Of a DNA stretch of 64,000 bases, positions 1 to 64,000 are shown in pieces. Under the pieces are notes generated by a model. It saw only the letters and a program-made list of their open reading frames with translations. It was not told the DNA's origin and ran no database searches. Origin of the DNA: Xiphias gladius (Eukaryota; Chordata; Actinopteri; Istiophoriformes; Xiphiidae); assembly GCF_016859285.1 (NCBI RefSeq), contig NC_053414.1, forward strand, positions 1 to 64,000, read 5' to 3'. Each line of letters begins with the position of its first letter. The first letter of the stretch is position 1. The translations under genes were made by a program, and so were the position numbers.

Positions 1-1860
1 CATTATGCACAAAATACCCCTGAGCAGCAGTTTCCATGTCCCCCTCAGGAGACACCGGCTCAAAAGGGCCTTCAGCGAGTGATCAGACTATTGTTCCTGA
101 GCTACCTCACTATGAGAAATGGCCTTGAGAGGCACAGGTATGACTACAACTTTTTCCAGAGCAGCCTCATCGTTTCTGCGAACCATAGCTCGAGTTCTTA
201 CGCAAGCTGGGAACAACTCCGCCTCAGGGACAGACTCTGCTGTTTTAACCACCTCTGACTTTGAGGGCAGCGATACTGTAATGCGGGTAACCACATTAGG
301 GGGCGGAGCATCGGCCCAGACTTTACATCCTACCGGGTAATTCCCCAAAATCATCTCGACCTCCTCCACAGGCAATGCCGGACACACCCCAACTGCTACC
401 TATCTGGTGACCGAACCGCAGACTAGCTCCAGTTTATGCACTGGTACTGGAATAATAGTCATACCCATACCCTGCATCGTGTAGCCTACCAGGGTCTCTC
501 AAAATTTTAACTGCAAGTTACTTCTTTCCAGGCAGGGACACATGACCATCTGAAAGAAACGCTGAATAATCCCCTTTACTTTCAGGCACACAAGCAGGGG
601 AACCGGGGGAATCAGAATGACCCACTGTTTGTAGTGCCAGCTGGGCAGAAGAAACGACAGGGGCAGCCAAAGCAGCAGATTTTACTTGTGCATTACCTGA
701 AAACTTTGCTTTCCTCTAAGAGCAGGACATTCATTTTTCCAGTGCCCTTACATTGGCAATAATTACAAGTTCTACCGAATCATTTCTCTTCCAAGTACTG
801 TGTTTAGGTCCATAAGAACTGGACTCTATATGACATAAAGATTTACCCATGCGTGCTGAAAAACTACTCTGCTGCACATTAGCCAGGTTAAACGATTTCG
901 CCAAATGTATGTTTATGAGTCAGAATTTACTCATCGCCAAAACGGCTGCTTCTTGGGGGCCTTTTAACTTTTCGGTCATTTATGTAAGTAGCAATATTAT
1001 CTGACACGCAGTTTTACAGTTGCTCAAGTGCTACTAAATCACACAGTTATTGAAAAGTTTTAACCTCTGATGCAGAACACCAGCAAATAAGCTGTACAAC
1101 CAAATCTCTCATAAATTCGGTCTGGTGTTCCTTCTTTCTCAAATTCCTGAAACGTTGCCGATAGGCCTCAGGAACAAACTCTTACACCCGCAACACTGCA
1201 GACTTAAAACTACCATATCTTTTTACTCCCTACCACCATCAAAGACGCATGGGCCTCCTGTGCCTTACCTGTGAGGACGATTACAACAATAAGCTGCGAT
1301 GCTCATCAAACCAGTCACGGGACTCTGCCACCCGCTCAAACAAAGAAAACAACTGGTCTGGATCTTTTTCTATGATCTTGGGAAGCAATTTCAGGTTAGT
1401 TCCAATATCAAATCCACTTTTTTCCTGAACAGCACCCCCACCAAACAGCTTTCCCTCTATTATCAGCTTCATTTTATAGTGTTCCAATTCTAATTTTGCC
1501 TTCTCATTTTTTGTTTCATCACTTCCACTTCCAATTGTTTATACTGTAACATTTTGTCCTGTTCTAATTCAATCATTAACTGCTTTTCAAATGTTAAAGC
1601 ATCATGGGTCACTGTAGGTGGAGCCCATCATGTTTACCCACAACTTCAGACAAAATCTCATCATCAACCAGTTTATTTTTCAGAAAAGCTTTTAAAAATT
1701 TTCTTTCAAACGTTTATCAGTCACCTCAATATCAAAGTGCTCAGCAATCTTTAATAATTGGTCCTTCTTACACTGATCCAATAACTCCACTGAAGGAGTC
1801 TGAATAAATCTCAAAAGAGACCATATTCATAGTCATACCTTCAAATAGAGGACAAAGAGT
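1..1860 (-). mobile_element. Gmr1-like Ty3/Gypsy fossil, gag part, cut by the window edge
   Basis: On the minus strand the reading matches the gag part of the fuller copy at 55703-60290, including the stretch with FGGGAVQEKSGFDIGTNLKL near 1281-1487. The pol part lies left of the window. It sits antisense to the TRG cassette, in the V-J interval of cassette 1. It is broken, with many breaks. The same insertion is present in the other cassettes, so it predates their duplication. Confidence 0.8.
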
Positions 1861-3050
1861 GTAACAGGTGCACCTCAACAAAAATATTTTGTTACTATCA
1901 GCTTATTTGGTTTACAATTAAAGAATATTTTTTTCCCCAGTTTCCCGCTATTAAAATAGGTTGGAAGTGGATTCCAGGGAATCTCTTTTCCTGGGATTAA
2001 ACACTACACCAAAGTTATGACAATTCATCAAGAATTCATTGGGCAACAAAACAATGGACTTTATCACAGGATATAGCTGTTCGTGTCCCATCTCCAACAG
2101 AGAGTCGCTTTTGATTTGTTTTAAAGAATCACAACGATGTTTCCCTGACCTTAAGGTTATTATAGCTTTATCCATGACGACAAAGCTCATCAAACCTTAA
2201 CAAAGTGTTTATTTTAACACAAATCATGATCTTTACTTGAACCTGACCAAACATGAACCAAAGTGTTGTCACATCATAAAACCGACAAGTCCTCAAACCT
2301 AAATGACCATATGAGTCCTTTGTCACTAGTCTCTGATACGACCCCTGGGAGTGTTTCATGAATTAGTGCCCCTACGGCGGCAGGAGAGATGCCACAGATC
2401 GACTTAAACAGTGTTGTATAAACAAAGAACTAACCCATTTATGCTGAGACAATGCTATGGTCAAGGTTTGATTAGGTTTAGGTACAAAAACAACTTATTG
2501 AGGTTTAGGGAGAGATCATGGTTTGGGTTACAATAAGTAACTCATTAAGGTTACAGGACCTTTGTTGTCATGGTTACAATAATCAACAAGTGGTTAAGGT
2601 AATTGAACGCTCATGGTCATGGTTAAGAGAAACAGCATTAATTATCGATTTGAAATGGTAAACAAACAGCAGTGTCCCCTGTTAAAGTCCAATGTGTTGT
2701 CAACCCATTCATCCATCCACAATCTCCTCCCTCGTGAAGTTTGTGGAGCTATAACATCGTCACCTGACTTCCTCCTTTAATACCATTATACTTCCTGCAG
2801 CCACGAGATGGCTTCATCAGTTGAATGTAAACTTGTGGTTTTGGGATATTTGCCAGAAAAACTGACGGTTTCTCACTCGACTGTAAGATATCACTCAACA
2901 ATGAAAGGTAAACATGGGTGATAAGCTGTTTGCAGCAACGACATATGGGCTGCTTGTTTATGGGAGGACAGTCTCCATAAAACGGATTTATTTTCCTACA
3001 GTGATTTGTAACAGGTTTGGAAGAAACAGACAAATAATGTTGTCCTGCTG
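1861..3050. repeat. Noncoding repeat stretch in the V-J interval of cassette 1
   Basis: No gene is recognised. The stretch around 2450-2640 is rich in AACC/GGTT words (aaggtttgattaggtttagg and similar), of a kind common in fish interspersed repeats. A 103-codon open frame lies on the minus strand at 2749-3060 and is also open in three other cassettes, but it resembles nothing I know. The inverted counterparts lie at 15790-16960 and 45330-46490, with a direct copy at 60290-61467. Confidence 0.6.
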
Positions 3051-4165
3051 ATGGAGGCATCTGGTCAGAAAAACTTGCGTGTGTTTGTTGTAGAGAACAG
3101 TTACAATCAACAAAAAAGTCACAAAATAGTCACAATGGACGTCACACAAGGCAAGTTGGTTCCACTGACTTTCAGCTGCTACAGTCTGGAACTCAATGGA
3201 TTAGTCCACTACTTGTCTACCTCCCTGGCTCAAATTCAGCAGATCCCCCACAGCATCCCTCCTGGGGGCAGTATGGTGAGCACCTTCCTCAGCTCAGACG
3301 TGAACAGTTTGACCTATGAATAGATAGGAGACTGCCTCTCCCGCTCTGCTGTTCCCCAGAGTCTCGCTAGGCCGGTAAGAAAGGAGATGGTGTAAGTGGT
3401 TCTGGCTTTTTTGATGGGGACAGAGGAAGGCTGGAGTTTGAAAGGTTTGCAGGCTCCTGGCTCCCTGGAGTAGCATTCAGGTGGTTATAGGCAGGGTTTG
3501 GAGGTGGAAACCGCCAGAGCAGGAACTGGAGACACTGCAGGAAGTGGCTGGGTTTGGATCAGCTCAATGGAGCCCAGGATGCACTCATGGAGGGAAGCCT
3601 CATGCAGTCCAATAGCTATCGATGTGAATTGATGTTCATGGCGCATTTAATGGCGTTGGTCAACTCAGTTCCTGGTCCCAAAGAGCTCGCAGCTGAGGTT
3701 TAGTCCATACTGTTCACATTGTACTGTGACGGCTCAGGTTGAGAAGGACTCAATAGAAAGACTCAGGACTTAGAGACATCGGTAAAAGTTCAGAACAGTT
3801 CATCTTCATCATGGCTCGTCAAAAAGGAGGAGGCAAGGGAAAAAAGTAGGCGGTGGGCCGTGTTGGGTAACAGGCAGGAAGATGAACCAGGCAAAAGGCG
3901 AAAGGAGCAGGCAGGAGGCTCAATCTAAGACCAGGCAGGTAATCAGAACCAGGAAAAAACAAGAAAAACAGCCAAAAAAGGCAGGAAAGCTACAGCGTGG
4001 AAAGCACAATAGGCAATCTGGCAGGAAAGGAGCGAAAATGGGCCAGTATAAATACTACGACCTGATTAGGGAGTTGGGAACAGGTGAGTAGGTGGAAGGG
4101 GAGGAGTCAGGTGGCTGAAAGGCGGGAAAGCCGGGGGGACTGCAGGACAGGAGGTCGTGGCAGGG
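3051..4165 (-). mobile_element. Second Ty3/Gypsy fossil: gag fragment plus LTR-like end
   Basis: On the minus strand the gag fragment shows the patterns TYTISFLTGLARLWGTAE and, further on, an AAESQWNQLAL-like motif, both typical of Ty3/Gypsy gag. Ahead of it (about 3790-4165) is a stretch with a TATTTATAC box and polypyrimidine runs that looks like an LTR. It is a different family from the Gmr1-like element. Only the 5' part of an element is present and it is broken in several places. Copies sit at the same place in all five cassettes. Confidence 0.65.
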
Positions 4166-4730
4166 TCTGAAATGAAATGAGGAGAGTTAGTAATGTGGAA
4201 AAATGAATGAATGCATGAATGAACTGTGACAAATCAAACATTTCTTAAATCTACCTCCTTATCTAAGCTTAATGAGCGAACCACATGAAATACTGTTGAG
4301 TTCTTTTATGTTGTAGAGATGGTTTTGTAGTGATATGCATCATTACACTTGTCTGCAATACATTGTGTATTTTATTGTGTTGTGTTTTATTTTTATTATG
4401 TATATTGATTTTGTTTTGTACTTTTTACATGGTATGTTGTATAATGCTTAAGAGAGACTGTCTGTCACAGAAGAGGAATTCAAAAAAAAATGTTGATGAT
4501 GATGTGAAGTCAAGGACCAAAAAGTTACCACAGTTCATCCTGGGGGGAACGTGAACGTCTGAAACTATTTATATGTGAATATTTGTTGAGATATTTGAGC
4601 AAAAAAGAGAAGAAAGGAAGAGACAGTCATGTTGATGTGAACATGAGAGAAACACTTGGTGGAGCTGAAACATGATCCTGGTTCATCATTTGGACTCGTT
4701 CACCTCAGCTGACACATTCAACAGCAGACA
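4166..4730. other. Noncoding DNA upstream of J, cassette 1
   Basis: AT-rich, with a short GAATGAATGCATGAATG simple repeat near 4204-4222. No gene is seen. An ATG at 4672 opens a frame that runs through the RSS into J; see the J entry. Confidence 0.5.
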
Positions 4731-4758
4731 GGTTTTTGTACCAGTCTGTTTCACTGTG
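4731..4758 (+). other. J recombination signal, 12-bp spacer (cassette 1)
   Basis: Nonamer GGTTTTTGT (4731-4739), a 12-bp spacer, and heptamer CACTGTG (4752-4758) abutting the J coding end. Both elements match the consensus exactly. A 12-RSS on J paired with a long-spacer RSS on V is the arrangement expected of TRG. Confidence 0.95.
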
Positions 4759-4810
4759 AGAGGAAAGTACTACTTCATCTTTGGCTCTGGAACTAAACTG
4801 TATGTAAAAG
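4759..4810 (+). CDS. TRGJ: TCR gamma J segment (cassette 1)
   Basis: This 52-bp J segment encodes RGKYYFIFGSGTKLYVK and ends in phase 1 at a clear splice donor (AAAAG|GTAAG). It supplies the end of CDR3 and the G strand of the gamma-chain V domain after V-J joining. The FGSG motif and the KLYV ending resemble mammalian TRGJ (FGSGTTLVV). The last base combines with AT at the start of the C exon to give Asp (DEP). An ATG at 4672 lies in frame with J and the frame stays open across the RSS. No other J was found in this cassette. Confidence 0.93.
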
Positions 4811-6498
4811 GTAAGAATCTACATTTATTTTCCTTCAGTTGTTTTACTGAAGAAGTTTAAAATGTGTTTTCAGTCAGTTTCTGCTGCTTCAGACTTTACA
4901 TGTTAGTTTTTTCATAGTTAGTACAAAGTTCCTTATGCAGCCGCTCTGAAATGGAAAGGTTGGATAATTTGTGAAAAGATGTTTAAATCTCACTGCACAG
5001 CAGAAGGAATTCTTTATTTCTGCTCGAGGTAAAAAGTTCTGATATTGTGAGTGCAATCTGAATCAGCTGCTGCTGAATGAATCATCAGACGTCTTCTCTC
5101 TCCTGAAATCAATTCATTTTTAGACAAATGACTGTGGAGGATTTTCCTGCTCAGTTGACTTTTTGTACAAAATTTAGAGTTGATCAAAGTGAATTTCAGT
5201 GATGAGCAGAATTCTTCACATTCAGTCTAATTCATAAAAGTAAAATGTTTCCTAAACGTTCATTTTGTTCACGGGAAATGATATTTCTAAAGTTTCTGGA
5301 GGTAAATACATTAAATGAACACAGTTGTTTTCTGATAATAGATTTATTCTGTATGAAATATTGGGAAAAAATTACGTTTTATATTCAACATTACATAAAA
5401 GTTGTTTGATGTTAAATGATCAAGAGAGTGTCAATTAAATATAATTAATAGACTGAAAAGACATTTTCTGTTCATGCAGTATATCAGCATGATGATGTAC
5501 AATATATAAATCTATATTACCAAGGTAAAATTCACAGTAAATACATGTTTCAGGTTAAAACTGTATATTTAATGATTGTAATGTCTCTTTATTTAATGGT
5601 GAATGTGTTTTTTTGTGTAAGATATATTAACAATAAGGTGAAATATATTTGGCATTATCTCAAGAGAAATAGGCTATATGTTATTTTTATTATATTTGTT
5701 TTCTGTTGTTTCTATGACTGGAAATATTTTTTGCAAAATGTAGAATTTAAAGTAGCTTTTGTGGTTTAATGTAGAATTTGTTCAAAATTATAAGAGGTTA
5801 AATTTTAAGTGTACATTTTCATCATGACATTATGAAAAAATTATTTATTTGACACAAAATGGAATATATACATATGTATATACATATATATATGTGTGTG
5901 TGTGTGTTTAATGTTTAGAGACATTCTACTTGTGTAGCTACGAGAAAATACAAAAACACGCTCAAACTTCTTTATTTAAAATCAAACATATATGACCAAA
6001 CTATATCATGGTCAATGTTTCAGGAATAAAATCTTGTGATATTATTCATATTGTGAAATCTGCCGTTAACACTGTTTATCTCACGACTGTCATTGTATGT
6101 TAAATAATGCTAAGTGTGTCTTTTGTAAAAGATATAGTTAAAATATTGAAAACATCCTAATATAATATTATGATGACACATATATTCCGAGCTTATGATT
6201 TATAAAAGTGAAACATGAATCTAAAGAATTGAACTGCTGTTGCCATCTTTAACTTCCTTTAGCTTCCTCTTCTTTCTCTGATCGTAGACATAATATACAA
6301 CCATGATATATAGCACAGTAAATATATGTGGAGGTGAATCCAGTGCATGTGCTGAACTTTGTGCTGTATTGATGAGTAGTTTAGTGACCAGAGTCCATGT
6401 AGTTTCCAGGATCAGACTGAATGCAGTGCAGTGCTGGAAGCTGCTGCTGACTGTGTGAATGTGTGTCTGTGCTGCTTGTTGCTGCTGTCACGCTTCAG
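4811..6498. other. J-C intron, cassette 1
   Basis: About 1.7 kb of AT-rich intron between the J donor and the C acceptor. A TATA/CATA tract leads into a (TG)n microsatellite near 5868-5908. A 74-codon open frame at 5545-5769 is very AT-rich and is not considered a gene. The inverted copies are at 12338-14051 and 41871-43583. Confidence 0.8.
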
Positions 6499-7783
6499 AT
6501 GAGCCGGTAGTGAAGCCTGTGGTGAGCGTGTACCCAGCAGCATCCAGAGCCCACCTGGAGGAAGAGCTCCCTGCTGTGTCTGGCCTCAGACATGTCTCCT
6601 CCTCTGGTCCAGTTCTCCTGAAAAGACAGAAGCAGGATGGTCCTCTGGAGGAGCTGCCCCTGCTGAGGGAGAGCAGCTGGAGCTCACAGGGTCGGATCGC
6701 GCCGCTGCCTTGCTGATTCATCAGCCAGAGAACAGCACCTATAAATACCGCTGCTACGTCAGGCACGAGGGGGGCACAGTGGAGGCCCAGACAGAACAAG
6801 GTAATGAAGGCTGGGTGACTGTGTTCAGCAGTGATTCAGCTTCACGTGGAGACACTGTCAAAGACAGCAGAGCAGCAGAGGACTGACTGATTTCTCACTG
6901 CAACGCCAAACATTTGAATCCTTTTCTGTTTCAGAGGTTCCAGCTCCAGCAGCCTCCTGTCCTCCAGAGAGAGAGCCACCTGCCCTGCCAGCTGTGCAGC
7001 AAGCTGACGGTAAGATCCCCTGCTGCCTCTCTGCATGGACAGCTCCAATGTTCTGCTGCAGTTAGGGCTGCATATCAGTCTGTTCACCCTCTGCACATCC
7101 CTGAGGGATTTAAACCCACACTCTTCGATTCTGTTAGAGTTTCCAACAGCACAACAAATCCCAGTAACAGAGCCTTCACATCACCATTCTGACTAATAAC
7201 ACGTGTTGGGGGCTCTATACTAAATGTGGGGCTTTGAGGGTCCTAATAACAACTTGAGGGACTATATCTTAAAGTTCCACTAATTAATATTTCTGTATGA
7301 CGAATGAATCGAATGACTCTGTGTAAGGTGAAAGGTCAGAGATGACTTTTTCACTAGTTGTGGAGTTCTTCTGCCCCCAAGTGGCTGCAAAAAGAAAATC
7401 AATGAATCCAACTTCAAACTCATAATAATCAGATTTTCTTATATTTGCACTTTCCATTTGTTTCTGGAGTTACTTTAATTGTCATAAACACTTAGCAGAA
7501 CAAGGTAATGAAGTCTTGGTGACTGTGTTCAGCAGTGGTTCAGCTTCATGTGGAGACGCTGTCAAAGACAGCAGAGCAGCAGAGGACTGACTGATTTCTT
7601 TTTTCATCCCTTTCTATTTCAGTGGTTCCCCTGGATCCTCTCCAGCGTCAGTGCAGGGTGAAGCTGTTCTGTCTGCTGTACACAGCGCTGATAGTGAAGA
7701 GTCTGGTGTACTGCTGTGGACTCTCTCTGATCAGGATCCTCAGAAACAAGGGACCATCCACCAGTGGCACACATGCCGACTGA
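6499..7783 (+). CDS. TRGC: TCR gamma constant gene, long form; first exon frame-disrupted (cassette 1)
   Basis: There are three exons. Exon 1 (6499-6800) encodes the Ig-C domain, starting DEPVVKPVVSVYPAASRAHL. Exon 2 (6935-7009, 75 bp, phase 1-1) encodes a proline-rich connecting peptide with one Cys, EVPAPAASCPPEREPP then ALPAVQQAD. Exon 3 (7623-7783) encodes QRQC, a membrane span with its charged Lys (TALIVKSLVYCC) and a short tail ending GTHAD. The Lys is the residue that pairs with CD3 in gamma chains. Exon 1 is 302 bp against 309 bp in cassettes 2-4. The 7-bp shortfall is spread over four places (near 6560, 6619, 6658 and 6706) and breaks the frame. Exons 2 and 3 look sound. This could be a pseudogene or uncorrected base-call errors; the losses fall partly in G or C runs. 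Splice sites are intact. Confidence 0.88.
6793..6895 (+). repeat. Direct repeat, left copy, flanking the connecting-peptide exon
   Basis: This 103-bp stretch starts at AGAACAAGGTAATGAAG, the end of C exon 1 and its donor. It recurs at 7497-7599 with a handful of differences. Exon 2 lies between the two copies. Minus-strand cassettes have a single hybrid copy and no exon 2. Confidence 0.85.
7497..7599 (+). repeat. Direct repeat, right copy, flanking the connecting-peptide exon
   Basis: Partner of 6793-6895. It ends just ahead of the polypyrimidine tract of the transmembrane exon. It also carries a copy of the exon 1 donor sequence, here without an exon in front of it. Confidence 0.85.
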
Positions 7784-8106
7784 CTGTTTTCTGCTTTTCT
7801 GCCTTTTCTCACCATCAGTTCATCTCATCTACTCATTGCTCAGGAGTCAGAAGTGCACAGTCTAGATTCAGTCATCCGAAATACATACACATGTATATTT
7901 GCAGTTCCTCAGTGGGAATTCTGTGTTTGAGTGTTATTTTGATACACCTTTTTACAATATTTCCAATGCTACATTCTGACTTGTGCGATAATAGAAATTT
8001 AAGCTGAATCATTAGCTGCTTGGTAGATTTTGTCTTACTCACAGTATTTTTTTCAATACATTCTGCAGGGTTTAGGTTTGTCAGATGTATTCACTGTAAA
8101 CGTCTC

Positions 8107-8112
8107 AATAAA
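8107..8112 (+). terminator. Poly(A) signal of the cassette 1 TRGC transcript
   Basis: AATAAA 324 bp after the stop codon, followed by a GTGTGTTTGTTCTTT-rich stretch. This gives a plausible 3' UTR of about 0.34 kb. Confidence 0.55.
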
Positions 8113-8377
8113 CCGAAAAATCAGTGTGTTTGTTCTTTATAATCATCATGTATTTTATTGATTTCAAACAGAAAATGTGCTTCATTGGCAAGTTTGTTGA
8201 AATATACAAGTAACTTGACTCTGGTTATAAGTAGCTCTTAATATACTTTCACATAATGTCAAAAACAAACTGACAGGATGATATAAATATAGGCACACAG
8301 CTAAAAAAAACGCATAGCGACACTACAAAACATAAGCAAACATAAACATGTAGTTATTTTATGTAAACCAGTGGCTG

Positions 8378-8640
8378 TGGGTGTACCACCAGGCTCAGTG
8401 CTGGGTCCCCTGATCATTTAGGTTGTAAATTAATCATCTTTTATAACTGTGTCATAGTGGACGTCAAACTCTATGCTGATGAAACAATGGTTTACGACCA
8501 TGAACAATCAGCAGATGGAGCTGCTTTAAAACTACACTTGTTATAAAAATGATCACACAGCAGCTTGATCAGTCGAGGCTGAAGTTTAAATGTTGAAAAC
8601 GATGGGTTTGTTTATTTTGTTTCAGAAAACCCAAATACAA
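8378..8640 (+). mobile_element. LINE reverse transcriptase fragment
   Basis: The stretch translates to VAVGVPPGSVLGPLII and, in a neighbouring frame, VKLYADETMVY, followed by an SRLKFNVGKTM-like stretch (clearer in the duplicate at 37909). These are the GVPQGSVLGP, YADDT and RLKLN.KT motifs of a non-LTR RT of the L2/Rex/jockey kind. The YADD box reads YADE. Only about 260 bp remain, frameshifted, without 5' or 3' ends. Confidence 0.75.
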
Positions 8641-9012
8641 CTTCAGTTTCACATTTCTATCATTAGAAAAAATGTTTGGTATAGTTACTGATTATGAGTG
8701 AACTAAGATTTATATTTATCTAACACGTTACAAGACAGAATCACAAAATAATTCACACAGAAATACACAAGTAACATATGCAATGTAAAAGAAAAACACA
8801 GCATGTTGTACAGTAACATATAATGTAGATAACATACAATGGGTCAGTGGGATTGATGAGATGAAGGAATTAACATCTGGTACTGATTGAGATGTACAGA
8901 CTCCCCTGACAAAAGGTGTTTTTTTTTAATCAACTGTAACTTACTAAAATAACGAGACCTGAGGTGAACCAACATGGACGCTGTAGTTCTGCTTCGAGAA
9001 GAGAACGACAAC

Positions 9013-9055
9013 ATGACTTGTTTGTCTCAGTGGTTTGTGGTTGTGTCTCTGTGTG
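9013..9055 (+). pseudogene. Possible orphan V leader exon
   Basis: ATG opens MTCLSQWFVVVSLC and ends in phase 1 at G|GTGAG. Length (43 bp) and phase match the leader exons of the TRGV genes at 51068 and 54183. A polypyrimidine tract and CAG follow at 9112; beyond it GRDSVLNMLSWYQFK contains a WYQ like framework 2, but the frame soon stops and no RSS was found. It may be a V remnant or a chance ORF. It is duplicated at 38545-38587. Confidence 0.3.
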
Positions 9056-10055
9056 GTGAGTTTTCTTGCTCGGATTAATGACAACAAATGTACTTTTTTT
9101 TTTAATTTGCAGGCAGGGACTCGGTGTTGAACATGCTCTCATGGTATCAATTTAAATACTGTGAAATGTAATTTTTCTAAAGGAGAAATTCATGAGAGGA
9201 TGTAAGATTTCAGAAACACCAACATTTCAGAATGAATCTCTTTTATTAATATTTCATATGAGAAATTACTGATAATTTGATAATAAAATAAGAACATAGT
9301 AATGAAAATATGAATTATTATATGCCTAAATCAAAACGTCTTACTTGCTATAATACTGATCCTTTCATTACCTTCAAGTTTTAGTAGTCAAAGAATAATT
9401 AATTATTATTAACATCTTATATATACAAAAAAACCCACAGAAATATTTAGTTTCCTTCTTCCTAAAAACCTGCAGGAGGATATTTTATGTAAATCGGATG
9501 TTTATTCATATTCTAATGTAAAGCATTTATTTCTATGTGTTTAAAATTCACAAAAATCTCTGAAAATCATGATTTCAGTTGCGTTCTTAATATTAAAATC
9601 TTTTCTACTTTTTAAAAAAATATTTCTACTTTTTTCAAGTGTTCTTCATCTGTGTAGGAGTCAGTCATTATTTATTATTATAATAATGACGCCCACCAAC
9701 ACCTCACAGTTTTATTCTGAATTCTCTCATGTTCAGACTTCTTTTAGTAATTTGTCTAGTTTAAATGCTCTAAAGGCTGAAAACACAGTTCGATTTAGTG
9801 ACAGGTAATAAAATGGGACCTTTGCAGACTGAAGGAGCTTTAACTTCTTTTTATTTCATCCAGGTTCATTTCTCAGCTCCGAGGTCAGGATTTGAGCTGG
9901 TTCTCTCACAGAGTGAGAACACAGATCCTTCCTGGAATGATTCTTTAACCAGAGTGGATGCTTGTAACTGTCATTGTGTTGTCACAGTGAAAGCCCAGAG
10001 CTGACGGCGTGAAGGCTGCAGAGCAGGAACCCACACAGCCCATCTACTGCAGGAA

Positions 10056-10593
10056 AGGAAGTGTTGATTTTTTATGAGTCCTAATAACCACTGAGAACAG
10101 ATTCATATCTGCTGCTGTACACACTCATGAACCCCCCCTCCCTCTCTGTAGTTTGTCTCTTAGTGACACTTTTTCCAATGAGTCCTCCACCCACACAGAG
10201 TTAAACTGAGCCCAGCGACCCACAGAGATGAACCACCCGGAGGTCTCGCCCTTTGGATTTCTTTTATAGAGATTTGGAGTTTTAGCACTTAAAGGTCGCT
10301 TTACAGTTTTACTGCCAACAAGTTCTCCTACATACCTGACACAGGTTGTTTGTCAGGACCCTCCAGAACTACAAGAATCAGAGTTTTCTGATCTGACGTC
10401 TCTAGAATTTGTCATCTAAGCTATCTAAGCTCTGAGGACCGTGGTTATGCAAATTAATTATTGTTAAGTTTCAGAGACCCAAGTAGTGAGGAGGTCCGGG
10501 AGCTAAAGTCAGGACCTAAATCAGGAGCTTCAGTGCGTTCATGTTCTGATTTCAGCCAAAAACGTAATGAACCGTTCTTATAACCAACCACAA
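10056..10593. promoter_or_regulatory. Candidate shared TRG 3' enhancer: Ets, octamer and RUNX-like sites
   Basis: The region contains AGGAAGTG (10056-10063, Ets-like), CGTGGTT next to a perfect octamer ATGCAAAT (10447-10454), and AACCACAA (10586-10593, RUNX-like). Ets, octamer and RUNX sites are typical of antigen-receptor enhancers, and mammalian TRG enhancers lie 3' of C. This spot is 3' of two convergent C genes. The motifs are short, so this is inference. Confidence 0.3.
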
Positions 10594-11750
10594 CACTGCA
10601 TAAGTGACATTTCTTATACTGATCAAAGTGATAAATGAGATGAACTGATGAGATTTTAATCTGTTGAATACCGATGAAAACTGAAGGTGTCGCTGTTGTA
10701 TGACTTTTGCTTCACAGCCAATGCAGACAATGTAAAAAACATCCCAAAAAAAGACAAAATTTAATTTTTTCCACTTTCTCAGTTACTAAAATATATTTAA
10801 TTGTATCATTTTCAACATGTTTTAAGATGAAGTTTGGAGTGTAAATCGTGTCATAGATGTAACTTTAAAAATTTTAGTCAGCTTTTAACTGAGGTCGTAC
10901 TGTATAAGTAACTTTATATGTACTTTGAGTAGCTTGTAAATGATGTCATACACGTATTTTTGTATTTATTTAAATTAGTTTGTAAATAATATCTTATATT
11001 TAACTAAATGTAAAATAAATGATTTCATATGTTTAACTTTATATGGATCTTAAGTAACTTGCCCTGCTGTTTTATTTGTGTGTGTAAACAACAGTTTCAT
11101 CAGCATAGAGTTTTACCTTGACACTGACGCATTTGTAAAGATGGTTAATGTTCAAGTTAACTCCCCAGTTAAGCTGTGCGCTTATAATTGTATCTTCCCG
11201 TTCATTTGTTCCTGGCACTTTATTAAAGTATACTGAAAGCTATTTACAGCCACAGTCAAATTACTTGTAGGTGTCAGTATATCTGGCCAACATAGTCGAT
11301 TCTGTTCCTAATTGTTTGATCCAAAATCAAATTTAAATTCATAAAAAAGAGGATGTTGATACTAAACAGACAGTGTGATTTTTTTTAATATACATTGAGA
11401 ATGTTACAGTGATTGAATTTGGCAAACTGGCCACACTCTGCAGAAAGTATTAAAAAAAAAAAACATAAGAACCGAAAAAATACTAACAACAACAGAATAT
11501 TTACCAGACACCTAATGATTCAGCTTAATTTCCTATGAATGTACGAGTCCCTATTGTCCCAAAGTGGATATAGAGTATTACAATGACACTATAGTACACA
11601 ATTTAAACTTAGTAACTGCTAATATATGTATATGACATATGTATTTATTATTTTTAGACTGACTGTATCTAACATGTGAATGAAAACAGTCCTTCTACGT
11701 GATGAATGAGATGAACTGATGGTGAGAAAAGGCAGAAAAGCAGAAAACAG

Positions 11751-12337: not shown

Positions 12338-12926
12338 CTGAAGCTTGACAGCAGCAACAAGCAGCACAGACACACATTCACACAGTCAGCAGCAGCTTCC
12401 AGCACTGCACTGCATTCAGTCTGATCCTGGAAACTACATGGACTCTGGTCACTAAACTACTCATCAATACAGCACAAAGTTCAGCACATGCACTGGATTC
12501 ACCTCCACATATATTTACTGTGCTATATATCATGGTTGTATATTATGTCTACGATCAGAGAAAGAGGAAGCTAAAGGAAGTTAAAGATGGCAACAGCAGT
12601 TCAATTCTTTAGATTCATGTTTCACTTTTATAAATCATAAGCTCGGAATATATGTGTCATCATAATATTATATTAGGATGTTTTCAATATTTTAACTATA
12701 TCTTTTACAAAAAGACACACTTAGCATTATTTAACATACAATGACAGTCGTGAGATAAACAGTGTTAACGGCAGATTTCACAATATGAATAATATCACAA
12801 GATTTTATTCCTGAAACATTGACCATGATATAGTTTGGTCATATATGTTTGATTTTAAATAAAAAGGTTTGAACGTGTTTTTGTATTTTCTCGTAGCTAC
12901 ACAAGTAGAATGTCTCTAAACATTAA

Positions 12927-12958
<32 letters not shown>

Positions 12959-50614: not shown

Positions 50615-50652
50615 GGTTATTGTTCAGGCTGCAGGGATCATTTCTCACTGTG
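50615..50652 (-). other. V recombination signal, long spacer (cassette 4)
   Basis: On the minus strand, heptamer CACAGTG (50646-50652), 22-bp spacer, nonamer ACAATAACC (50615-50623). The long-spacer class complements the 12-RSS of J. Confidence 0.92.
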
Positions 50653-51213: not shown

Positions 51214-51271
51214 GTTTCTGACAGGTCCTCAAACCTCCCATCAGCCCCCACGGCCCACAGAAGAGGCTGCT

Positions 51272-54021: not shown

Positions 54022-54079
54022 AGCAGCCTCTTCTGTGGGCCGCAAGGGCTGATGGGAGGTTTGAGGACCTGTCAGAAAC

Positions 54080-54182: not shown

Positions 54183-54640
54183 ATGCTTTTCCTCCCAGCT
54201 GCTGCTCTGTGCTGTCTGTGTTCAGGTGAGTGTTTCCAGCCAATAGGGAGCCAACAAACTCAACCTTTAACAAACACTGTCACACGAACCTTCATCTGTC
54301 TGTCTGTTTCTCTACAGCGCTGGTTGCCACGGCAGAAGAGCTGATCCAGGACCAGTTATCATTGACCAGGAAAGTTGGTGACACAGTCTCCTTCAGCTGT
54401 GGAGGAACTCACCAGTGTAGCAGTAATTATACATACTGGTTCCAGAAGAAAGACACAGAAACATTCACATTGATTCTTGCTATTGACAAGAGAGATGGCA
54501 AAATAGATTCAGGTTACAATCATCCTCAGAAAGATGATTTCACAGCTGAGAATAAACAGAACGGCTGTGAGTTGAAGATAAAGAAAGTTGAACACTCTCA
54601 TTCAGCCACCTACTACTGCGCCTGTGTGAGGTTTGATTCC
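54183..54640 (+). CDS. TRGV: TCR gamma V gene, intact (cassette 5)
   Basis: Leader exon 54183-54225 (MLFLPAAALCCLCS, donor CAG|GTGAG, phase 1), 92-bp intron, V exon 54318-54640 (323 bp). Leader and framework 1 match the V of cassette 4. Differences gather in CDR1-CDR2 (YTYW; LILAIDKRDGKIDSGYNHP) and at the CDR3 end (YYCACVRFDS). Canonical Cys and Trp are in place. The same extra Cys residues are found in CDR1 (THQCSSN), framework 3 (NGCELK) and CDR3 (CAC). The RSS is perfect. It would join the J at 63181, 8.5 kb downstream across the Gmr1-like fossil. Confidence 0.93.
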
Positions 54641-54678
54641 CACAGTGAGAAATGATCCCTGCAGCCTGAACAAAAACC
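54641..54678 (+). other. V recombination signal, long spacer (cassette 5)
   Basis: CACAGTG (54641-54647), 22-bp spacer, ACAAAAACC (54670-54678). Heptamer and nonamer are both consensus. Confidence 0.94.
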
Positions 54679-54825: not shown

Positions 54826-55619
54826 GAGTCTACGGCCATGCAGCAGCTCTGTGAGGCCGTACTTACACACAGTGTTGCTTTGAGCCAAATGCTAACATGC
54901 TGATGTTTAGCCGGTATGATGTTGACCATGTTCACCATGTCAGTTTATATAGGAAATGTTAGCATGCTAACACGTGCTAATAATCACTAAAAACAAAGTG
55001 AAGTTGAGGCTGATGGGAACGTCGTTAGTTCTGCAGGTGTTTGCTCATAAACTAAAGTATTGGACAAATTCAAATGTTGACCTCATGATGGCGCTGTGTT
55101 AAAACTTAAGACGACCAAAGTAGTGATTAATGTATTTCCCAAAAATCAGATATATTCTTTCCCCGGAGAAGAAGCTCTCTCTCTCTCAGGAAACCTTGGA
55201 AATTGAGTTGTTTTAAAGGTGTAACATCCGCTAGCATCAAAACGCTTTAGCCATAGTCAAACACCACTAAATGCAACAAGGAGAAATATGGATAAATCTG
55301 CGAGTTCAATACCTGAGAGCTTTAGTGTATTTTTTGGTATTAATATAATTAATACAATGAATAACTATTAAGGCAAAAAAAACACCATTAATGTTAATAG
55401 ACATTAGAATGAACACAACATAAAGTTCACATGCAGCTTGAACTTCATTATACCTGTGAGGAGGAATATGAAATACCAGGTGATTTGCCTGTGATGTGTC
55501 TGCTGAGAACAACCTCACGGAGGTGATATGTGACACATTTTCAATGTATAAAAGACAAATTCGTTGAAGCAAGTAGTTTTTGTCATTTGAAAGTAAGTTT
55601 TCAAAATCTATTGAGCTGA
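54826..55619. repeat. 0.8-kb insertion with percomorph-type repeat (cassette 5)
   Basis: This segment interrupts sequence that is continuous in cassette 4 (near 50470): the flanks ATACAGATTAACAG and ACAGATTC adjoin there. It contains GAGGCCGTACTTACACACAG and ATGCTAACATG words that I associate with an abundant perch-like fish repeat, and AT-rich DNA. No coding sense recognised. Family unknown. Confidence 0.55.
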
Positions 55620-55702: not shown

Positions 55703-58700
55703 TGTCACGAACAAGCTCAACTTCGTGACAAACAAGGGAGACCACACCAAGAATCAAGGATCAAAGTAACACATTTATTTCACTAATATTAGACAATCCA
55801 CAAATTTTACTGGGAGATATGCGAGTCCATTGTATCAGTAGTGAGATGAGTGCTTGAACGTGTGAACGTCTGGTGCAGGCAAAGGATGAAGTAAAATAGT
55901 AATGAAAACCCAAACTACTGTCTGCTGGGAGGAGAGAGAGAGAACTGTCATATCCAGCCCTCTTATATAAGCTAGCAATCAGGAGGAGTTGCTTCAGGTG
56001 TAGCTCATCATCCGTCTGGACGCACCTCTGCCACTCTGCCTGCATCCTACAAGAACAGGAAAAACACACACACGAGAAGCCCCAAACAGAGTGGGAGGGG
56101 GCATCACACCCCCCGCATAAAAACGGAGCCCCGCCAGGTTCTCCGCCACAACATCACAAAAAGGTCCAATGTTAAATACTACAATTTCTTCAAATATGAG
56201 CAATGTTTAGCTACAGTTATGCACTGTGCATCTACAAGACGCGGGAAAGGGCAGCCGCCGTTACATTTTCAGCACCTTTAATATGGCAGATATCCAAACG
56301 ATATGGCTGCAAAAATAATGTCCATCTCATTAAGAGTTGATGAGGATTTTGTAAAGAAAACAAGAAAGTAAGAGGATTATGGTCTGTGTACACTACGAGA
56401 GGAGTCCCAGAACCAACAGTCACCTCAAAATGCTGTAATCCCCAAATTAATGCCAGAGCCTCCTTCTCAACGACAGAATAGTTCAACTGAAGGGAACTGA
56501 ATCTTCAGAAGCACACTGGACCTTGGCTGACTAAACAAGCTTGACCTTAGACTTCAAAAGGTCAGTGAGGGGCGCCACAACTGAAGAGAAGTTCTTACAA
56601 AAACTTTTATAATAGCCCACCATGCCAGGAAAACTCCTTTTTTACTTACAAAGGATTGAAAATTCTTGATTGATTCCACTTTGGCCTTAACGGGATGAAC
56701 CTCCCCCACTAGTCACTTTCTTTAAGTAGGTAACTCTAGCTTGAGCAAATTCACCGTTAACTGTGCCCGGACAAACCTGTCAAACAGTGCACGAATCCTC
56801 TGTAGATGTTTGTCCCATGTGTCACTGAAGTTGACAAATTCATCAAGATACACATGCACAACCCCACAGATCTGCCACCACACGGTTCATCAGCCGCTGG
56901 AACGTGGCCGGGGCATTACGTAAACCAAAAGGCATCGCCCTATAAGAATACAAACTGGTAGGAGTTATAAACGCACTTATCTCCTGGGCCCGTGGAGACA
57001 GTGTCACCGGCCAGTATCCTTTAAGTAGATCAAATTTAGCTGAGCCTACTTGGTCGACGCAATCCTCCATGCGTGGCAAAGAGAGCAGATCCGGTTTTGT
57101 GACACTGTTAACCTTGCTGAAGTCAGTGCATGGCCGAAAAGTGGAATCAGGTTTTTTCACCAGTAAACATGGAGACGCCCAGCTAGAAATGGATGGTTCC
57201 GCTATTTTAATATCTAGCATATATTGAACCTCTTTATCCAATTGTGCCCTCTTATCTGGCGAAACGCGATAAAAGCGTTGCTTAATTGGTTGAGCATCAA
57301 CAACATCTATGTCATGTTCATTAAGATGTGATTGTGACGGAGCATCTGAAAATAGTGCTGGGTAGCTATTATAAGTGAAACCAGTTCATTGCGCTCAACC
57401 TCATCTAAATGCCCAAGCACTACCGGCAAAGACTTTAATGCCTCTGAGTTGTTTAAACTTACTTGCAACACACCATCTGTAGGCCATTCCCCCGACCCAT
57501 TAACTAGCCCCACCAGCAAAGACACCTCTGTACTTACACAAAGTCCAGGTTTTACACATGGGACCTGATTAGAGCCCAGGAACAACTACTCACGGGCATA
57601 AGAATGCTTCATCAAATTGACGTGACACAATCTAGATTTTCCTTTCGGCAATGAGATCAAATAATTCTGTTCAGAGACAGGAATCCGGTGCTCACCTGGA
57701 CTAACTCTCTCACAGCCAACAGCAACCAAGGCAGGCCCTCCCCCCAGTAGTGATCAAGCTTTGTGAAGAAGGCACACGAGTGAATTCAAGGTTTTAAAGA
57801 AAACGCTCTAAAGCACCTTGACTTTGGGGATGATAAGCGACGCCTGGTTGTGTTTAATCTGAAGCTGCTGAAAAACCTGTGAAAACAGATGAGAGCGAAA
57901 ATTGGAACCGTGGTGAGTTTCTATGACTTTGGGAATGCCAAACACAGAAATGAACTGAGACAGTGCCTTCAACACACACTTGGCTGTAATAGAACGCAAT
58001 GAGTAGGCTACTGGATAGCGGGTCGCCCGGCACATCACATTCACAGTCAACAAATATTGACTACCGCCTTTGAGGGAGGCAGCGTACCCACACAGTCCAT
58101 GAGTAAATGCTCAAATGGCTGATCCAAAGCTTGAATTGGACACAGCGGAGCCGGACTTATGGACGGATTTGGCTTATCCATCAGCTGGCAAGTGTGGCAA
58201 GTTTTTATGAACGCAGATACATCCCTTTTCAACCAGGACCAAAAGAAATGACGCAAGATGCGATGGTATGTTTTTTATTAAAACCCATTTGACCCACTAC
58301 ATGATCATGGGAAGCTTTCATCACCGCTTCTCTAAATTTAGCAGGCACCACAATTTGCTCAGTTGGTTTTCCCACAAAACTGTGTTCCTGAGACATCCTG
58401 AGACAAGACATCATTATGCACAAAATACCCCTGAGCAGCAGTTTCCATGTCCCCCTCAGGAGACACCGGCTCAAAAGGGCCTTCAGCGAGTGATCAGACT
58501 ATTGTTCCTGAGCTACCTCACTATGAGAAATGGCCTTGAGAGGCACAGGTATGACTACAACTTTTTCCAGAGCAGCCTCATCGTTTCTGCGAACCATAGC
58601 TCGAGAGTTCTTCGCAAGCTGGGAACAACTCCGCCTCAGGGACAGACTCTGCTGTTTTAACCACCTCTGACTTTGAGGGCAGCGATACTGTAATGCGGGT

Positions 58701-60290
58701 AACCACATTAGGGGGCGGAGCATCGGCCCAGACTTTACATCCTACCGGGTAATTCCCCAAAATCATCTCGACCTCCTCCACAGGCAATGCCATACACACC
58801 CCAACTGCTACCTATCTGGTGACCGAACCGCAGACTAGCTCCAGTTTATGCACTGGTACTGGAATAATAGTCATACCCATACCCCGCATCGTGTAGCCTA
58901 CCAGGGTCTCTCAAAATTTTAACTGCAAGTTACTTCTTTCCAGGCAGGGACACATGACCATCTGAAAGAAACGCTGAATAATCCCCTTTACTTTCAGGCA
59001 CACAAGCAGGGGAACCGGGGGAATCAGAATGACCCACTGTTTGTAGTGCCAGCTGGGCAGAAGAAACGAAAGGGGCAGCCAAAGCAGCAGATTTTACTTG
59101 TGCATTACCTGAAAACTTTGCTTTACCTCTAAGAGCAGGACATTCATTTTTCCAGTGCCCTAACATTGGCAATAATTACAAGTTCTACCGGAATCATTTC
59201 TCTTCCAAGTACTGTGTTTAGGTCCATAAGAACTGGACTCCCCATATGACATAAAAGATTTACCCATGCGTGCTGAAAAACTACTCTGCTGCACATTAGC
59301 CAGGTTAAACGATTTCGCCAAATGTATGTTTATGAGTCAGAATTTACTCATCGGCCAAAACGGCTGCTTCTTGGGGCCTTTTAACTTTTCGGTCATTTAT
59401 GTAAGTAGCAATATTATCTGACACGCAGTTTTACAGTTGCTCAAGTGCTACTAAATCACACAGTTATTGAAAAGTTTTAACCTCTGATGCAGAACACCAG
59501 CAAATAAGCTGTACAACCAAATCTCTCACAAATTCGGTCTGGTGTTCCTTCTTTCTCAAATTCCTGAAACGTTGCCGATAGGCCTCAGGAACAAACTCTT
59601 ACACCCGCAACACTGCAGACTTAAAACTACCATATCTTTTTACTCCCTACCACCATCAAAGACGCATGGGCCTCCTGTGCCTTACCTGTGAGGACGCATT
59701 ACAACAATAAGCTGCGATGCTCATCAAACCAGTCACGGGACTCTGACACCCGCTCAAACAAAGAAAACAACAGGTCAGGATCTTTTTCTGTGAACTTGGG
59801 AAGCAATTTCAAGTTAGTTCCAATATCAAATCCACTTTTTTCCTGAACAGCACCCCCACCAAACAGCTTTCCCTCTATTATCAGCTTCATTTTATAGTGT
59901 TCCAATTCTAATTTTGCCTTCTCATTTTTTGTTTCATCACTTCCACTTCCAATTGTTTATACTGTAACATTTTGTCCTGTTCTAATTCAATCATTAACTG
60001 CTTTTCAAATGTTAAAGCATCATGGGTCACTGTAGGTGGAGCCCATCATGTTTACCCACAACTTCAGACAAAATCTCATCATCAACCAGTTTATTTTTCA
60101 GAAAAGCTTTTAAAAATTTTCTTTCAAACGTTTATCAGTCACCTCAATATCAAAGTGCTCAGCAATCTTTAATAATTGGTCCTTCTTACACTGATCCAAT
60201 AACTCCACTGAAGGAGTCTGAATAAATCTCAAAAGAGACCATATTCATAGTCATACCTTCAAATAGAGGACAAAGAGTGTAACAGGTGCA
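55703..60290 (-). mobile_element. Gmr1-like Ty3/Gypsy fossil, fullest copy (cassette 5)
   Basis: On the minus strand, in 5' to 3' order: gag (about 60240-58900, with a zinc-knuckle-like GHWKNECPALRGK near 59150), integrase (about 58470-57810; HHCC finger, then core), reverse transcriptase (about 57240-56840; MPFGLRNAPATFQRLMN), RNase H (56486-56232; YTDHNPLTFL) and 3' LTR (56108-55703). Gypsy-type RT with integrase upstream of it is the hallmark of the Gmr1 family of fish elements. No 5' LTR is seen here. Broken, with many breaks. Older than the cassette duplications. Confidence 0.85.
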
Positions 60291-61467
60291 CCTCAACAAA
60301 AATATTTTGTTACTATCAGCTTATTTGGTTTACAATTAATGAATATTTTTTTCCCCAGTTTCCGCTATTAAAATAGGTTGGAAGTGGATTCCAGGGAATC
60401 TCTTTTCCTGGGATTAAACACTACACCAAAGTTATGACAATTCATCAAGAATTCATTGGGCAACAAAACAATGGACTTTATCACAGGATATAGCTGTTCG
60501 TGTCCCATCTCCAACAGAGAGTCGCTTTTGATTTGTTTTAAAGAATCACAACGATGTTTCCCTGACCTTAAGGTTATTATAGCTTTATCCATGACGACAA
60601 AGCTCATCAAACCTTAACAAAGTGTTTATTTTAACACAAATCATGATCTTTACTTGAACCTGACCAAACATGAACCAAAGTGTTGTCACATCATAAAACC
60701 GACAAGTCCTCAAACCTAAATGACCATATGAGTCCTTTGTCCCTAGTCTCTGATACGACCCCTGGGAGTGTTTCATGAATTAGCGCCCCTACGGCGACAG
60801 GAGAGATGCCACAGATCGACTTAAACAGTGTTGTAAAAACAAAGAACTAACCCATTTATGCTGAGACAATGCTATGGTCAAGGTTTGATTAGGTTTAGGT
60901 ACAATAACAATTTATTGAGGTTTAGGGAGAGATCATTGTTTTGGTTACAATAAGTAACTCATTAAGGTTACAGGACCTTTGTTGTCATGGTTACAATAAT
61001 CAACAAGTGGTTAAGGTAATTGAACGCTCATGGTCATGGTTAAGAGAAACAGCATTAATTATCGGTTTGAAATGGTAAACAAACAGCAGTCTCCCATGTT
61101 AAAGTCCAATGTGTTGTCAACCCATTCATCCGTCCACAAGCTCCTCCCCCGTGAAGTTTGTGGAGCTATAACATCGTCACCTGACTTCCTCCTTTAATAC
61201 CATTATACTTCCTGCAGCCACGAGATGGCTTCATCAGTTGAATGTAAACTTGTGGTTTTGGGATATTTGCCAGAAAAACTGACGGTTTCTCACTCGACTG
61301 TAAGATATCACTCAACAATGGAAGGTAAATATGGGTGATAAGCTGTTTGCAGCAACAACATATGGGCTGCTTGTTTATGGGAGGACAGTCTCCATAAAAT
61401 GGATTTATTTTCCTACAGTGATTTGTAACAGATTTGGAAGAAACAGACAAATGATGTTGTCCTGCTG
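60291..61467. repeat. Noncoding repeat stretch in the V-J interval of cassette 5
   Basis: Near-identical counterpart of 1861-3050, including the unrecognised 103-codon frame (61166-61477, minus). No gene. Confidence 0.55.
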
Positions 61468-62590
61468 ATGGAGGCATCTGGTCTGAGAAACTTGCGTGTG
61501 TTTGTTGTAGAGAACAGTTACAATCAACAAAAAAGTCACAAAATAGTCACAATGAACGTCACACAAGGCAAGTTGGTTCCACTGACTTTCAGCTGCTACA
61601 GTCTGGAACTCAATGGATTAGTCCACTACTTGTCTACCTCCCTGGCTCAAATTCAGCAGACCCCCCACAGCATCCGTCCTGGGGGCAGTATGGTGAGCAC
61701 CTTCCTCAGCTCAGACGTGAACAGTTTGACCTATGAAAAGATAGCCTTCCTCTGCTGTTCCCCAGAGTCTCGCTAGGCCGGTAAGAAAGGAGATGGTGTA
61801 AGTGGTTCTGGCTTTTTTGATGGGGACAGAGGAAGGCTGGAGTTTGAAAGGTTTGCAGGCTCCTGGCTCCCTGGAGTAGCATTCAGGTGGTTATAGGCAG
61901 GGTTTGGAGGTGGAAACCGCCAGAGCAGGAACTGGAGACACCGCAGGAAGTGGCTGGGTTTGGACAGTGAGTGACTGGATCAGCTTGTTAATGGAGCCCA
62001 GGATGCACTCATGGAAGGAAGCCTCATGCAGTCCATTACTACCGATGTGAACTGATGTTCATGGCGACGAATGGCGTTGGTCAACTCAGTTCCTGGTCAC
62101 AAAGAGCTTGCAGCTGAGGTTGAGTCCATACTGTTCACATTGTACTGTGACGGCTCAGGTTGAGAAGGACTCAATAGAAAGACTCAGGACTTAGAGACAT
62201 CGGTAAAAGTTCAGAACAGTTCATCTTCATCATGGCTCGTCAAAAAGGAGGAGGCAAGGGAAAAAAGTAGGCGGTGGGCCGTGTTGGGTAACAGGCAGGA
62301 AGATGAACCAGGCAAAAGGCGAAAGGAGCAGGCAGGAGGCTCAATCTAAGACCAGGCAGGTCGTCAATACCAGGAAAAAACAAGAAAAACAGCCAAAAAA
62401 GGCGGGAAAGCTACAGCGTGGAAAGCACAATAGGCAATCTGGCAGGAAAGGAGCGAAAATGGGCCGGTATAAATACTACGACCTGATTAGGGAGTTGGGA
62501 ACAGGTGAGTAGGTGGAAGGGGAGGAGTCAGGTGGCTGAAAGGCAGGAAAGCCGGGGGGACTGCAGGACAGGAGGTCGTGGCAGGGTCTG
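61468..62590 (-). mobile_element. Second Ty3/Gypsy fossil: gag fragment plus LTR-like end (cassette 5)
   Basis: Counterpart of 3051-4165 in the same orientation. LTR-like part about 62215-62590. Broken. Confidence 0.65.
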
Positions 62591-63152
62591 AAATGAAATG
62601 AGGAGAGTTAGTAATGTGGAAAAATGAATGAATGCATGAATGAACTGTGACAAATCAAACATTTCTTAAATCTACCTCCTTATCTAAGCTTAAGGAGCGA
62701 ACCACATGACATACTGTTGAGTACGTTTATGTTGTAGAGATGGATTTGAAGTGATCTGCATCATTACACTTGTCTGCAATACATTGTGTATTTTATTGTG
62801 TTCTGTGTATTTTTATTATGTATCGTGATTTTAGCTTTGTACTTTTTACATGGTATGTTGTATAATGCTTACAAGAGACTGTCACAGTCAAAGACTTGGA
62901 CAAATTCAAATGTTGACCTGATGGTGGCGAAGTCAAAGGACCAAAGTTACCACAGTTCATCCTGAGGGGAACGTGAACGTCTGAAACTATTTATATGTGA
63001 ATATTTGTTGAGATATTTGAGCAAAAAAGAGAAGAAAGGAAGAGACAGTCATGTTGATGTGAACATGAGAGAAACACTTGGTGGAGCTGAAACATGATCC
63101 TGGTTCATCATTTGGACTCGTTCACCTCAGCTGACACATTCAACAGCAGACA

Positions 63153-63180
63153 GGTTTTTGTACCAGTCTGTTTCACTGTG
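63153..63180 (+). other. J recombination signal, 12-bp spacer (cassette 5)
   Basis: GGTTTTTGT (63153-63161), 12-bp spacer, CACTGTG (63174-63180). Perfect consensus. Confidence 0.95.
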
Positions 63181-63232
63181 AGAGGAAAGTACTACAGCAT
63201 CTTCAGCTCTGGAACGAAACTGTATGTAACAG
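63181..63232 (+). CDS. TRGJ: TCR gamma J segment with altered FGXG motif (cassette 5)
   Basis: Encodes RGKYYSIFSSGTKLYVT in 52 bp with an intact RSS and donor (CAG|GTAAG). The conserved FGSG reads FSSG: GGC (Gly) in the other four J segments is AGC (Ser) here. The first Gly of the motif allows the G-strand bulge of V domains, so a chain using this J may fold less well. The frame is otherwise open. The C gene it would splice to lies beyond the right edge. Confidence 0.9.
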
Positions 63233-64000
63233 GTAAGAATCCACATTTATTTTCCTTCAGTTGTTTTACTGAAGAAGTTTAAAATGTGTTTTCAGTCAGT
63301 TTCATCTGCTTCAGACTTTACATGTTAGTTTTTTCATAGTTAGTACAAAGTTCCTTATGCAGCCGCTCTGAAATGGAAAGGTTGGATAATTTGTGAAAAG
63401 ATGTTTAAATCTCACTGCACAGCAGAAGGAATTCTTTATTTCTGCTCGAGGTAAAAAGTTCTGATATTGTGAGTGCAATCTGGAATCAGCTGCTGCTGAA
63501 TGAATCATCAGACGTCTTCTCTCTTCTCTCTCCTGAAATCAATTCATTTTTAGACAAATGACTGTGGAGGATTTTCCTGCTCAGTTGACTTTTTGTACAA
63601 AATTTAGAGTTGATCAAAGTGAATTTCAGTGATGAGCAGGATTCTTCACATTCAGTCTAATTCATAAAAGTAAAATGTTTCCTAAACGTTCATTTTGTTC
63701 ACGGGAAATGATATTTCTAAAGTTTCTGGTGGTAAATACATTAAATGAACACAGTTGTTTTCTGATAATAGATTTATTCTGTATGAAATATTGGGAAAAA
63801 AATTACGTTTTATATTCAACATTACATAAAAGTTGTATGATGTTAAATGATCAAGAGAGTGTCAATTAAATATAATTAATAGACTGAAAAGACATTTTCT
63901 GTTCATGCAGTATATCAGCATGATGATGTACAATATATAAATCTATATTACCAAGGTAAAATTCACAGTAAATACATGTTTCAGGTTAAAACTGTATATT
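63233..64000. other. J-C intron, cassette 5, cut by the window edge
   Basis: Near-identical to 4811-5600. The C gene, expected about 1.7 kb after J, would start near 64.9 kb, outside the window. Confidence 0.8.

Follow-up and report, generated by a model that had tools for sequence, protein, structure and literature searches.

A probable T-cell receptor gamma locus of alternating cassettes in Xiphias gladius, with an apparently unpolished block between its accurate parts

We analysed a 64,000-base stretch of the Xiphias gladius genome (NC_053414.1, positions 1-64,000, forward strand; 41% G+C, 0 N), hereafter the window, whose positions serve as coordinates throughout. With a probability of about 0.8, the window is a T-cell receptor gamma (TRG) locus of the bony-fish mini-cluster type, in which V-J-C cassettes alternate in orientation and in which 21,346-32,267 is an unpolished gap fill. 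The label 'bony-fish-type' combines a published motif with a likeness to fish TRG. A cassette unit would consist of a V whose signal has a 22-base spacer, a J whose signal has a 12-base spacer and a C of two exons that encodes a transmembrane lysine, and the alternating orientation would place C genes tail to tail and V genes head to head. An earlier note on this DNA had proposed a TRG locus of five such cassettes in strict alternation; its identification of TRG and of a cassette structure is supported by the C motif, the transmembrane residues and the V and J signals. No end of the locus, where the TRG flanking genes AMPH and STARD3NL would be expected, is shown within the window.

The identity of the locus is indicated primarily by its C genes, numbered here by cassette. 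A six-frame scan of the window finds the motif CX6PX6WX45C three times, once each in the C genes C2, C3 and C4; the frameshifted C1 does not show it. A transmembrane Y-X5-K, with tyrosine and lysine six residues apart, is present in C3 and C4, and the same residues are open in C2. Both the motif and the transmembrane tyrosine and lysine are listed as conserved in the excerpt of a study of sea bass TRG (PMC3485050). After C EX1, each of C2, C3 and C4 has a spliceable exon with a hydrophobic stretch, a lysine, a short tail and a stop. In TRG, J segments are usually paired with 12-type signals and V segments with long-type signals, and the signals observed here agree with this arrangement. Searches of the PDB weigh against the assignment. 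When the joined chain was used as query, the best 60 of 9,430 rows were antibody chains, bar one with an uninformative name, and no TRG row was among these 60; sequence searches with C and V also favoured antibody chains over TRG, and the transmembrane exon alone had no PDB match. We read the antibody bias as a lack of resolving power. An ordinary immunoglobulin light chain has a C region without a transmembrane exon, and this identity was rejected for that reason, even though light chains are what the PDB rows point to.

Recombination signals were sought on both strands, with a heptamer starting CAC, at most two mismatches in all and spacers of 11-13 and 22-24. The scan gave eight matches, every one at a V or J end (five J, three V). 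All five J signals have a perfect heptamer, a perfect nonamer and a 12-base spacer, and their strands read +, -, +, -, +; signals with a 22-base spacer lie at three of the four V places. By tblastn, V sequence is found at approximately 22.7, 26.1, 50.7 and 54.2 kb (strands -, +, -, +) and C EX1 at 6.5-6.9 (+), 11.9-12.3 (-), 36.0-36.4 (+) and 41.5-41.9 kb (-). No further V or J segments were found by tblastn (four V places) or in the signal scan (five J). One V and one J per cassette, as had been suggested, holds, with one C, wherever the cassettes are readable. Pfam recognizes a V-set domain in V4 and V5 and a C1-set domain in C2, C3 and C4; the first part of C1 gave no immunoglobulin match in Pfam. 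Cassette 4 is a complete minus-strand gene, with leader, V exon, J, C EX1 and EX2 all open and with GT/AG splice sites. The V of the first plus cassette would lie to the left of the window and the C of cassette 5 beyond its end.

Comparison of the window with itself by BLAST reveals long direct and inverted repeats. The direct repeats pair 2,841-20,930 with 32,357-50,466 (98.3% identity) and 1-5,569 with 58,412-64,000 (97.1%). The inverted repeats pair 1,882-6,895 with 11,934-16,969 (95.2%), 32,357-36,424 with 41,467-45,545 (96.3%) and 42,827-46,505 with 60,300-64,000 (95.9%). The repeat period is 29,516 bp from 2,841 to 32,357 and 28,901 bp from 32,357 to 61,258, in keeping with the 28-29.5 kb given previously. 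The spacers between inverted arms, approximately 2.9 kb on the C side (8,305-11,169) and 2.75 kb on the V side (51,271-54,022), likewise fall within the 2.5-3.9 kb proposed. The arms themselves had been put at about 10-11.6 kb; they are not continuous but chains of BLAST pieces of 0.3-5.1 kb each, spanning roughly 7-10 kb within the window.

On accurate sequence, the alternation is read directly in the right part of the window. The order in 32,357-64,000 is J+ C+ C- J- V- V+ J+, that is, three consecutive cassettes oriented +, -, +. The order in 1-21,325 is J+ C+ C- J-, a +, - pair of J-C ends. Within these two pieces only cassette 4 is complete as V-J-C; cassettes 1, 2 and 3 are represented by J-C and cassette 5 by V-J. 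The claim of five alternating cassettes therefore stands in part. Five J segments do lie on strands +, -, +, -, + and the alternation is present in the accurate right 31.6 kb, whereas two of the V places and the link from pair to pair sit in an error-rich block with anomalous joints.

The window was divided into 128 tiles of 500 bases, and each was set against whichever other copy in the window matched it best. Indel runs number 18.1-61.2 per kb in every one of the 22 tiles centred in 21,346-32,267. Where a tile and its best partner both lie outside the block (95 tiles), the figure is 0-12.2 (median 2.0), and in the remaining 11 outside tiles, whose best partner is in the block, it is 19.4-49.6. 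The ratio of indel runs to substitutions is 402:480 inside the block and 115:538 outside (Fisher p = 1e-31, with mutually matching tiles counted from both sides). In seven multiple alignments, private indels number 15-34 per kb in all six block rows versus 0-5.4 in all 22 others, and private substitutions 44-120 per kb versus 0-18. Among single-base insertions, 21 of 44 adjoin an equal base, with no clear homopolymer preference. The block falls into three pieces that differ in their balance of insertions and deletions (Table 1), and sequence is skipped between them: 201 bp at 25,285/25,288 and 68 bp at 28,084/28,083. Two of the four V places are inside the block and both are broken. The first of these, V2, has no recombination signal at two or fewer mismatches on either strand, and its V-set score is under the Pfam cut-off.

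The joints of the block are irregular as well. On the left, accurate sequence continues past 20,930 into a stretch that matches 55,619-55,229 in inverse and belongs to an insert form, 793 bp long, of the V-J interval; the sequence then jumps and restarts at 21,346 at the equivalent of 19,756/49,292. About 1.2 kb is consequently present twice, as one accurate and one noisy copy with 84.2% identity. On the right, the block stops at the equivalent of 1,874/60,292 and accurate sequence restarts at the equivalent of 2,841/61,258, so that 966 bases are skipped that the other four arms all have. Both joints are as would be expected if two contigs had been bridged by an unpolished fill. According to the excerpt of a survey of vertebrate assemblies, both haplotypes and contig boundaries can be falsely duplicated, and the boundary cases are recognized by differing consensus quality (PMC8081667). 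Two signs of false duplication are found here: consensus quality differs, and sequence is repeated at a contig boundary. Judged from these sequence features, the block looks like an unpolished long-read fill across an assembly gap between two accurate pieces, so that neither the cassette count nor the connection of the left pair to the rest is established. Two points weigh against this interpretation. The gene order of the block, V- followed by V+, is also that of the accurate stretch with two V genes at 50-55 kb and may be right, and real insertions would equally give two mismatched pieces of accurate sequence.

If the block is a gap fill, the two accurate pieces can be related in two ways. 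Five or more alternating cassettes may truly lie in a row, the block being wrong at the base level only; we regard this as a serious possibility, somewhat short of even odds. Across 18 kb the left piece shares 98.3% identity with the right, and the period is regular; the matching V-V order of the block also fits such a row. Within the accurate right piece, 17 substitutions per kb separate cassettes 3 and 5, which are both on the plus strand; therefore the repetition of plus cassettes is real at least there. The joints argue otherwise: at the left one 1.2 kb is repeated and the V-J interval changes from one of its two forms to the other, and the right one is without the 966 bp of the other arms. 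Alternatively, 1-21,325 may be the other haplotype of 32,357-50,466, set in series by the assembler and connected through the fill, with fewer cassettes per chromosome, which we entertain more tentatively. The left and right pieces differ by 11.6 substitutions per kb, which lies within the range of vertebrate heterozygosity of 0.1-1.6% given in the same survey excerpt (PMC8081667), and the right piece begins where its flank is missing, while the left piece has that flank. This divergence suits paralogues too, cassettes 3 and 5 differing by 16.9 per kb in one accurate piece, and the 793-bp insert form, lacking at 50,466/50,467, is found in the left piece, so that an allelic difference would be needed. 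From sequence comparison, 11.6 substitutions per kb fits both an extra pair and the other haplotype of 32,357-50,466. It is less likely than not that the TRG locus alternates strictly throughout, with every adjacent-cassette join inversional and all other segments kept.

A different explanation is that the block is a genuinely diverged, decaying cassette pair that was sequenced correctly. The high rate of private substitutions and the two broken V places would suit decay. The share of indels, however, far exceeds that between the other copies, the change is abrupt at both edges of the block, the indel balance differs across the three pieces with sequence skipped between them, and the heptamer of the V3 signal is perfect amid the surrounding damage. 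We judge real decay of the middle V genes improbable on the indel pattern. That the entire inverted layout is an assembly or read artefact, for instance from palindromic chimeric reads, is very improbable and was rejected: part of the window is demonstrably irregular, but the long J-C arms diverge by 25-32 substitutions per kb, opposite arms carry two C forms, and the spacers of 2.75-2.9 kb are without a long inverted counterpart.

The substitutions between arms also bear on the history of the locus. Long J-C arms in opposite orientation differ by 25-32 substitutions per kb versus 12-17 in the same orientation, and shorter accurate inverted pieces by 19-39. In an alignment of five arms (approximately 2.7 kb), 43 sites are informative as two versus three; 23 group the arms by orientation, 14 divide the plus arms and six pair a plus arm with a minus arm. 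The suggestion that the inverted arms favour gene conversion finds little support in these 6 of 43 sites. Strong conversion between inverted arms is not shown, with 23 of 43 sites grouping by orientation, and exchange between arms appears to be minor at most. Because opposite arms diverge more and the site pattern groups by orientation, the inverted duplication probably came earlier than the copying of the pair or its sampling as two alleles.

Fragments of retroelements, which we take to be Ty3/gypsy, lie antisense between V and J at 49,014-49,851 (+), 56,235-57,385 (-) and 57,827-58,551, with further copies; Pfam identifies integrase zinc-binding, RNase H and reverse transcriptase domains. 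Nine further open frames submitted to Pfam gave one match, to reverse transcriptase. Both orientations carry the fragments, which would therefore be older than the inverted duplication. On this history, a cassette that had already taken up a retroelement fragment would have undergone an inverted duplication, and the resulting pair would have been copied afterwards.

Table 1. Segments of the locus, pieces of the error-rich block and its joints (window positions).
Feature	Position	Strand	Details
J1 (cassette 1)	4,759-4,810	+	12-spacer signal 4,731-4,758
J2	14,052-14,103	-	12-spacer signal 14,104-14,131
J3	34,270-34,321	+	12-spacer signal 34,242-34,269
J4	43,584-43,635	-	12-spacer signal 43,636-43,663
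J5	63,181-63,232	+	12-spacer signal 63,153-63,180
V2, broken as written	22,698-23,074	-	inside error-rich block; tblastn
V3, broken as written	26,034-26,564	+	inside error-rich block; 22-spacer signal 26,527-26,564
V4, intact	50,615-51,110	-	leader 51,110-51,068; V exon 50,975-50,653; 22-spacer signal 50,652-50,615
V5, intact	54,183-54,678	+	leader 54,183-54,225; V exon 54,318-54,640; 22-spacer signal 54,641-54,678
C1	6,499-7,783	+	EX1 6,499-6,800; EX2 7,623-7,783; EX1 frameshifted as written
C2, open	11,751-12,337	-	EX1 12,337-12,029; EX2 11,911-11,751
C3, open	36,027-37,311	+	EX1 36,027-36,335; EX2 37,151-37,311
C4, open	41,284-41,870	-	EX1 41,870-41,562; EX2 41,444-41,284
Left joint	20,931-21,354		insert form of V-J interval, then jump, then restart
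Block piece 1	21,346-25,285		71 insertions, 101 deletions
Block piece 2	25,288-28,084		97 insertions, 17 deletions
Block piece 3	28,083-32,267		91 insertions, 60 deletions
Right joint	32,268-32,356		89 bases without other match in window

The C genes read here exist in two forms, one per orientation. C3 and C4 are 87% identical by tblastn, in an alignment that extends past the exon end; in their 3' parts the C genes share only about 75% identity. The C intron of the plus cassettes carries a second copy of the end of EX1 and the following intron (7,462-7,587; 36,990-37,115), to which tblastn with C EX1 gives short matches at 7.5 and 37.0 kb, and the gap from EX1 to EX2 is about 0.8 kb in plus cassettes versus about 0.12 kb in minus cassettes. 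In C1, EX1 measures 302 bp versus 309 bp; relative to the other three C genes it has deletions of two bases, of one base twice and of three bases. C1 is either a pseudogene or marked by residual sequence error, the latter being an option because the cassette-1 arm has more private indels than its relatives (3.9 per kb versus 0.2-1.0 in three other arms). The same arm contains a private patch at about 4,340-4,640 that departs from each of the other four arms by approximately 143 substitutions per kb. The J motif, FGXG in TRG, is FGSG in J1-J4 and FSSG in J5, a change that may weaken the use of J5. The 793-bp V-J segment is found, whole or in part, at 54,827-55,619, 20,931-21,325 and 26,719-27,550 and is absent at 50,466/50,467; it is usable as a marker to sort reads by copy.

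The arrangement of an alternating TRG locus suggests how its segments would be joined. Within a cassette, V and J point in the same direction and would join by deletion (V4-J4, 7.0 kb; V5-J5, 8.5 kb). Between adjacent, opposite cassettes, joining would occur by inversion only, because of the orientations of the recombination signals, and the intervening segments would be kept for later joins; such joins would span 11 kb for V5-J4, 12.5 kb for V4-J5 and 16.4 kb for V4-J3. The signal orientations support the logic of the earlier proposal that neighbours need inversion to join. Between cassettes two apart, with the J downstream, a deletional join could be possible again. Cassette orientation would in this way set whether V-J joining deletes or keeps the rest of the locus. 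In a locus that alternated strictly throughout, the gamma chain could be re-edited by one inversion after another, with exchange between the two orientation-specific C forms.

Repeated small V/J/C units are a likeness to the TRG mini-clusters of other teleosts, which we compare from excerpts of the published reports. In Atlantic cod each unit holds a single V, a single J and a single C; six clusters face forward, and a seventh, partial one is reversed and its V sees little use (PMC13149839). Channel catfish has four V-J-C cassettes, and the excerpt mentions no inverted one (PMC8656973); a mini-cluster is also cited for Japanese flounder (PMC3485050). Where cod has a single reversed partial cluster, neighbours alternate here. 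Inverted TRG cassettes are also in print for mammals, in the mouse TRGC2 cassette and cat cassettes 4-5 (PMC7349638, PMC6945721). As in Xiphias gladius, whole V-J-C cassettes are inverted relative to the rest of the locus, but in those species the inversion concerns a single cassette or one two-cassette block rather than an alternation. The generalization that TRG cassettes mostly keep one direction is thus fair, with exceptions in mouse TRGC2, cat cassettes 4-5 and the reversed partial cluster of cod. No TRG locus with regular cassette alternation was among the matches listed in our literature searches, and we regard regular alternation in TRG as an unusual form of an arrangement already known, inverted TRG cassettes as such being in print. 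The block calls for caution more generally: draft antigen-receptor loci can hold patched blocks with pseudogene-like genes, and their cassette counts may be inflated.

A parallel in joining comes from the immunoglobulin light-chain clusters of teleosts, in which the orientation of V and J is mixed. According to the excerpts, inversional joins from cluster to cluster were shown by cDNA in zebrafish (PMC3014032) and proposed in torafugu (PMC5241823). A receptor-editing layout has been described for fish light chains; for TRG, none was among the matches listed. In the light-chain loci, V often runs opposite to the J-C of its own cluster; in the cassettes of the window V, J and C share one direction, and it is the cassette as a whole that is reversed. 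An alternating gamma locus of this kind would permit the use of neighbouring cassettes without loss.

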